Positions 1-35,992 of a DNA stretch of 35,992 nucleotides are shown one piece after another. The stretch is from Pseudoxanthomonas koreensis (lineage in GTDB: Bacteria > Pseudomonadota > Gammaproteobacteria > Xanthomonadales > Xanthomonadaceae), in contig NZ_PDWM01000033.1 in assembly GCF_010093225.1 (NCBI RefSeq), forward strand, positions 1 through 35,992, given 5' to 3'. Every line of letters starts with the position of its first letter. Position 1 is the stretch's first letter. The notes below the pieces were generated by a model, which had not been told where the DNA came from, did not search any database, and saw nothing but the letters and a program-made list of their open reading frames with translations. The position numbers and the translations under genes are program-made.

Positions 1-56
1 CGCCGAGATCTCCACTCGCCTCTGCGGCGGGAGCGTCAGATGTGGAGAGGAGACAG
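1..56. other. Sequencing adapter remnant at contig end (not genomic)
   Basis: Read 5' to 3' this stretch lines up without gaps to the P5 side of an Illumina Nextera library. Bases 1-15 match the tail of the P5 oligo at 13/15, 16-23 sit where the 8-base i5 index belongs, 24-37 match the Read 1 linker at 11/14, and 38-56 match the Tn5 mosaic end AGATGTGTATAAGAGACAG at 16/19. Nearly all mismatches are A or T changed to G or C, as in a poor-quality consensus. The gene to its right is in its normal frame and sequence up to base 57 and loses all family similarity exactly at 56. The adapter comparison is from memory. Confidence 0.9.
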
Positions 57-290
<234 letters not shown>

Positions 291-303
291 CAGCGCGGCG
301 CCG

Positions 304-816
304 TCAGGAAGGCGTGGCCTCGCCCAGCGGCCGCGACGGGCCTTCGAGGCGGGCGGTGGCCGGCACCAGGGTGGCCACGCCATGGCCGCGCTCGGCCAGG
401 TATTCCAGCCACTTGCCGAGGAAAGTGTTCATGCGCAGGCGATGCCCGACCAGCTCGGCCGGCGGCGGATACAGGCCCACCGCGTCCTGCCAGCGGCGGC
501 CGACGTAGCAGTGGGTGGTCTCGACCTGGCGCGCGTCGGTGTACAGGCGCAGGTAGGCGGACGGATCCGGCTCGCCGGTGAGCGGATCGCGCAGGTCGTA
601 GGTCAGGCGCAGTTCCAGCGTGTACGCGTGCCGCTCCAGCACGTCCAGGCGCAGGTCCAGGCCATCGCCGATGCGGGATACGTAGCTGCCCTCGGCCAGC
701 CGCGCCGGCGCGAACAGGCGCTGCATGCGCGCGTGGTTCTCCGCGTACAGGCCCATCAGCCAGCCGAACCGGCTCAACCGTGGGATGCGCGTGCCATGTG
801 GGGTGACCTGCTGCAT
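304..816 (-). CDS. DUF1249 domain protein (YqiB family)
   Basis: A 170-residue protein recognisable as the DUF1249/YqiB family by the early tryptophan segment ([17 protein letters not shown]), the [21 protein letters not shown] strand region (residues about 55-75), [15 protein letters not shown] and the closing [14 protein letters not shown] motif near residue 145. The family has no established biochemical role. I chose the ATG at 816 because the conserved part begins about 16 residues later; the frame also opens at a GTG 57 bases further upstream with an unconserved Cys/Ala-rich extension. It lies 102 bases downstream of ppsR on the same strand and is followed after 13 bases by the flavin monooxygenase, so it may be in one transcript with either. 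Function cannot be read from the sequence. Confidence 0.85.
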
Positions 817-35312: not shown

Positions 35313-35962
35313 TCAGTCGGCGCGCGCCGGCACCAGGGCCAGCACGCGGTCGACGACCTCGTCGATGGACAGGCCGGTGGTGTCGATGAGGACGGCGTCG
35401 TCGGCCGGCTTCAGCGGCGCCACGGTGCGCTGGGCATCGCGGGCATCACGGGCGAGAATCTCCCGCAGCAGACCGTCAAATGTAACCGAAACCCCTTTTT
35501 CGTTCAACTGGTTATGGCGCCTGCGGGCCCGCTCTTCGGCGCTGGCGGTCAGGAACACCTTGGTCGTGGCGTCTGGGAAGATGACGGTGCCCATGTCGCG
35601 GCCGTCGGCGACCAGCCCCGGCGCCTGCCGGAACGCCCGCTGCCGCTCCTTCAGGGCGGCCCGGACCTCGGGGATGGCGGCGATGGCCGAGGCCAGGGTC
35701 CCGGTGGTCTCCAGGCGCAGCTCGGCGGTGGCGTCGGTGCCGTTCACCAGTACCCGCAGGTCCTCGCCCAGCTCCCGGAACTCGACCGCGGTGTCGAAGG
35801 TGCAGCGGACCAGGGCCGCCGGGTCGGACAGGTCCAGGTCGGCCCAGCTGGCCGCCACCCCCACCGCCCGGTACAGTGCGCCCGAATCCAGGTAGTGCCA
35901 GCCCAGCCGCGAGGCGGCCAGTCGGCTCACCGTGCCCTTGCCGGCGCCGGACGGGCCATCGA
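35313..35962 (-). CDS. cmk: Cytidylate kinase, 5' end missing
   Basis: Phosphorylates CMP and dCMP with ATP. The P-loop [16 protein letters not shown] is in frame at the very edge, followed by [19 protein letters not shown], the CMP-binding insert, [23 protein letters not shown], the lid [13 protein letters not shown] and the C-terminal [14 protein letters not shown]. Only the first few residues are lost: the codon before Asp (35963-35961) takes its first base from the adapter, and the natural one could be ATC (Ile), as in many Cmk proteins. A start at the GTG of 35930 would cut off the P-loop and is not credible. About 216 residues remain of a family of about 225. Confidence 0.95.
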
Positions 35963-35992
35963 CTGTCGCGTAGAAACCTCTGACGCGTCCGG
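35963..35992. other. Sequencing adapter remnant at contig end (not genomic)
   Basis: On the plus strand, starting at 35963, a gapless comparison with the outward-reading Nextera mosaic end and Read 1 linker matches 22 of 30 bases (14/19 in the mosaic end, 8/11 in the linker). It starts where the cmk P-loop sequence stops resembling the family. Polarity is outward, mirroring the left end. Weaker than the left-end match, but position and orientation agree. Confidence 0.75.

Follow-up and report, generated by a model that had tools for sequence, protein, structure and literature searches.

Degraded Nextera adapter sequence at both ends of a Pseudoxanthomonas koreensis contig

Two genes cut at the ends of the contig

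The window analyzed here, a stretch of 35,992 bases from Pseudoxanthomonas koreensis, is one entire contig (C26) of a draft assembly of 93 contigs and 3,049,664 bases; both ends of the window are therefore contig ends, and a gene is cut at each of them. At the left, the minus strand carries the 5' part of a gene for a luciferase-like monooxygenase (57–383; Pfam PF00296, E = 5.3e-11), seen as an open frame with the true start probably inside it and continuing in frame 1 of another contig, C4. At the right, the cytidylate kinase gene cmk (35,313–35,962, minus strand) has lost its 5' end: the match to Pfam PF02224 (E = 2.3e-68) covers 35,313–35,957, and homology ends at 35,962. Open reading frames run past both genes into the terminal bases. 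The left one (36–383, minus strand) crosses the join for six codons and then meets a stop, and the right one (35,313–35,990, minus strand) is artificial beyond 35,962.

The original prediction held that the luciferase-like gene is cut exactly at the join, after a whole codon, and that the open frame across the join is artificial. Indeed, the join falls between 56 and 57, a complete GTC (Val) codon of the gene immediately precedes it in reading direction, and the frame at 36–383 is false in its last six codons. Homology at the joins was sought in the 16 other genomes of the genus. On the left, the best alignment begins at 57 in eight of them and at 58 in four; three single genomes have it starting at 60, 72, and 79, and that of the last falls short of the region. 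The refuting test named with the prediction, a search for the 56 terminal bases in relatives, found a best alignment continuing to the left of 57 in 0/16 genomes. Two weak matches to the first bases (query 3–57 in G002 and 25–57 in G003) both lie at contig ends and are themselves adapter. In G014 and likewise in G011, 13/56 bases upstream of the homologous position are identical to the window. On the right, homology ends at 35,962 in all 16 genomes.

The remainder of the luciferase-like gene is found on C4. Frame 1 of this contig reads IRVGAGGIMLPNH... and runs for 264 codons to a stop, with three codons common to C26. It continues the ...AGTRTIRV of the window and closely resembles the unbroken protein of G014. 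A natural pseudogene of luciferase-like monooxygenase, an annotation against which the original prediction had rightly warned, is ruled out by this in-frame continuation from the start of C4 to a stop. We conclude from the reading frames that the luciferase-like gene shows no natural break and that its truncation on C26 comes from the assembly alone. The right neighbor of C26, C23, does not overlap with it; comparison with G014 gives a gap of about 42 bases. Since C23 starts 42 bases further on in G014, the first cmk codons lie in the gap.

Adapter sequence at the two ends

When positions 1–56 were compared without gaps with the P5-side Nextera adapter, 40 of the 48 defined bases agreed, in library order. 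The stretch consists, on the plus strand, of the 3' part of the P5 flow-cell sequence (1–15, 13/15), the i5 index slot (16–23), the Nextera read-1 stem (24–37, 11/14), and the Tn5 mosaic end (38–56, 16/19). This is the degraded P5-side adapter, with tail, index, and mosaic end, that was originally proposed, and the part counts given for it, including an eight-base slot and no gaps, were exact. The runner-up place for this adapter on either strand of the window gave 27/48, and 27 was also the best result of 20 shuffled adapters compared with the window. The P7 adapter, tried as a candidate for the same end, agreed at 21/48 bases at the join versus 40/48 for P5 and was rejected. With at most three mismatches allowed, the mosaic end has a single site in the window (38–56), and 0/100 shuffles contain a match. 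The stem and mosaic-end letters used for these comparisons are those of the Nextera adapter. The P5, P7, and index letters agree with the table in the available part of PMC7589761. The slot, TCGCCTCT, had been described as two bases off an i5 index; it fits S503 (TATCCTCT) at 6/8, the top score among the 10 i5 indices listed in that part of PMC7589761, followed by S513 at 5/8.

The right end of C26, which was absent from the original prediction, carries the reverse complement of the same P5-side adapter. Positions 35,963–35,992 agree at 22/30 bases, and the next-best place, left end aside, scores 18. The minus-strand mosaic end occupies 35,963–35,981 (14/19) and is followed by the first 11 bases of the read-1 stem at 35,982–35,992 (8/11, that is, 22/30 in all less 14/19). 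Judged by their sequence, both ends of C26 (1–56 and 35,963–35,992) almost certainly represent read-through into the P5-side Nextera adapter that was kept by the assembly. They are an ordinary artifact and no biological feature.

Were the 56 bases native, they would be a natural Tn5-like transposon end with a chance likeness to the mosaic end, and the luciferase-like gene would be interrupted by it. The 19-base mosaic end is transposon-derived by origin, and the reading frame crosses the join for six codons before it closes; both points count for a native end. Against it, the match does not finish with the mosaic end but also takes in the stem, the index slot, and the P5 tail, arranged as in a library molecule; the other end of C26 and further contig ends (below) are alike, P7 adapters included; and C4 carries the rest of the supposedly interrupted gene as far as its stop. 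An exact search for the degraded 19-mer in the genome_contigs collection, from which records of this or a very near genome may be left out, returned just two places, both in unrelated organisms, and about 1.9 are expected by chance in 257 Gb (our own estimate, assuming equal bases). We regard a native transposon end as extremely improbable and retain adapter read-through as the reading of both ends.

Adapter at other contig ends of this and related genomes

All 186 contig ends of the draft were considered; 20 short contigs are masked as N at both ends (40 ends), which leaves 146 readable ends. A P5 or P7 read-through score of at least 8, a cut set after the control scores were seen, was found at 18 of the 146, the two ends of C26 included. 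The maximum was 4 in interior controls (186 stretches of this window compared with two adapters, 372 comparisons) and 6 when five sets of shuffled adapters were scored against these contig ends. The lowest scores among the 18 belong to C65_start (8), C31_end (9), and C51_end and C65_end (10 each), and some of the matches are poor or short (C65_start, 16/24 without a gap; C31_end, 12/15; C51_end, 13/16). A nineteenth adapter end, C5_end, was recognized by inspection only (E = 0.053, read-through score 2). All 19 adapters lie at contig ends, and each faces outward. An A run past the adapter is a mark of a read running off its template; at C47, C50, C22, and C51, the adapter is followed, as judged by eye, by an A run and then by noise.

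Across five P5 slots, S503 is the best of 10 i5 indices tried (28/40, next 20), and across seven P7 slots, N704 is the best of 20 i7 indices tried (39/54, next 22), with an exact copy in C88. The exceptions are the P5 slot of C63, which is nearer S511 (4/8 versus 3/8 for S503), and the P7 slots of C16 and C27, which tie. Taken together, the index slots of the genome best fit a single barcode pair, S503/N704, as one library would leave.

Every copy is degraded. The exact first 12-mer of mosaic-end read-through is present at 0/146 readable ends; at the 19 adapter ends, between 1 and 6 of these 12 bases are wrong, the count of 6 belonging to C65_start, which was compared without a gap. Genome-wide, the first 14 bases of read-through have no exact copy and three one-mismatch copies, all at contig ends. 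Removal of the clean copies by trimming would leave no exact 12-mer at the ends, and the data fit such a loss, with the worst copies surviving. At the two ends of C26, index slot excluded, A/C or G/T swaps account for 12 of the 16 wrong bases (expected 1/3, P = 8e-4). The excess is weaker over 11 ends (43/92, P = 0.005), a count that omits six of 17 tabulated ends because they looked poorly aligned and draws on a table in which C65_start and C5_end do not appear. Swaps of A with C and of G with T are typical of cross-talk in four-color Illumina chemistry. We infer that the most fitting sense of "degraded" is sequencing error within the low-quality tail of a read that escaped trimming.

Some contig ends are rich in C or G. 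The end of C5 (L034, last 191 bases) consists of adapter and then about 150 C up to the contig end, and G, read in the outward sense, makes up 42 of the last 60 bases at C63 start, 50 at C93 end, and 37 at C14 start. These C/G-rich ends may be read tails of low quality that the assembly retained. An overlap of exactly 127 bases is seen in four pairs of contig ends and suggests that the assembler worked with words of 127 bases.

A search for adapter in 60 genomes, this one (G000) included, gave a match in eight. Among the 16 other genomes of the genus, five (G002, G003, G004, G012, and G016) have degraded stem and mosaic end at contig ends (loci L227–L230, L232, L234–L237, L240–L242, L244, L246, and L248). 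S502 is the best index in G003 (23/32, next 13) and in G016 (11/16, next 7). In G012 it is AGAGTAGA, which we take to be S504 (26/40, next 15, one slot exact). S503 leads in G002 at 16/24, barely above S502 at 15/24, and the single slot of G004 is fitted by none of the indices tried (3/8). Small matches in G040 (L231, L238) gave 17/33 in the stem comparison, were not found again, and are not counted as adapter. G032, a genome of the same family, has 18 mosaic-end matches inside scaffolds; its loci L233, L239, L243, L245, L247, and L249–L254 (11 loci in eight separate places) are whole or broken double mosaic-end junctions, mostly beside N. These double junctions are presumably copies of the Nextera Mate Pair junction that stayed behind in scaffolds after gap filling.

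A probable shared Tn5 cut and the proposed route into the assembly

The first nine genomic bases of C26 (57–65, GACCCGGAT) are identical to positions 1–9 of C4, an exact overlap in facing orientation and of the length of the Tn5 staggered cut; the Tn5 target duplication is given as nine bases in the available part of PMC8557372. C4 and C26 stand side by side in 14/14 relatives' loci compared (L003–L016; the loci of G008 and G010 were left out). The start of C4 and the left join of C26 apparently go back to one Tn5 cut. In this they resemble the nine-base junctions of neighboring Tn5 fragments in PMC8557372 and PMC8460729, since exactly 9 bp are common to the facing ends; in the available parts of those papers, however, the junctions are used on mapped fragments, whereas here the junction lies between two assembly contigs and was seen once. 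As a general rule for adapter ends, examined over the 146 readable ends, a 9-bp overlap was rejected: the only clean case among the 19 adapter-bearing ends is C26_start/C4_start. Overlaps of 8 to 10 bases at C31_end lie in C-rich low-complexity sequence and were not counted. Two adapter-free pairs, C45_start/C56_start and C25_start/C56_start, also overlap by 9, in G-rich low-complexity sequence, so the 9 bp at C26/C4 is to be read as a single case that stands out by its complex sequence.

A simple route would account for such ends. Tn5 would have cut the genome at the join, yielding a fragment shorter than the read and sequenced from its far end. The read would then have passed the genomic insert and continued through mosaic end, stem, and i5 index into P5. 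Its tail, with 8 errors in 48 defined bases at the left end of C26 and 8 in 30 at the right, would have been too poor for a trimmer to recognize, and the assembler would have retained it as terminal contig bases. Presumably no assembled fragment crosses the site, and the contigs would stop there for that reason.

Adapter might also enter an assembly by chimeric fragments or in a gap-filling step. That other routes exist in the family is indicated by G032, with its mosaic-end junctions inside scaffolds and mostly beside N. In the present genome, in contrast, all 19 adapters occupy contig ends and are directed outward, and the four ends that run into A and noise look like a read leaving its template. 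We consider a route other than simple read-through very unlikely here.

The presence of adapter at contig ends is already known. In isolate genomes and metagenome-assembled genomes, it has been found at contig extremities, tied to contig breaks and loss of contiguity, despite reported read cleaning (Moeller et al., 2024, PMC11536531). As in C26, the adapter in that report sits at the extremities of contigs of microbial assemblies. The kit and the state of the copies differ: the available part of PMC11536531 counts exact TruSeq 12-mers, whereas here Nextera adapter is present with 1 to 6 errors in the first 12 bases, so that an exact count sees none at these ends.

The contig ends of many Nextera drafts probably carry degraded adapters that go unseen by exact-match screens, with trimming sparing only the most error-rich copies; the slots would still reveal the barcode, and an occasional shared 9-bp Tn5 cut would place contigs side by side from the assembly alone. 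For this genome, the relevance is one of data quality only. The terminal residues of gene calls are false at both ends of C26, 86 of its 35,992 bases are to be removed, and the two cut genes are to be treated as partial. With degraded adapter in five of the 16 other genomes of the genus, screens for exact adapter can miss the contaminant.
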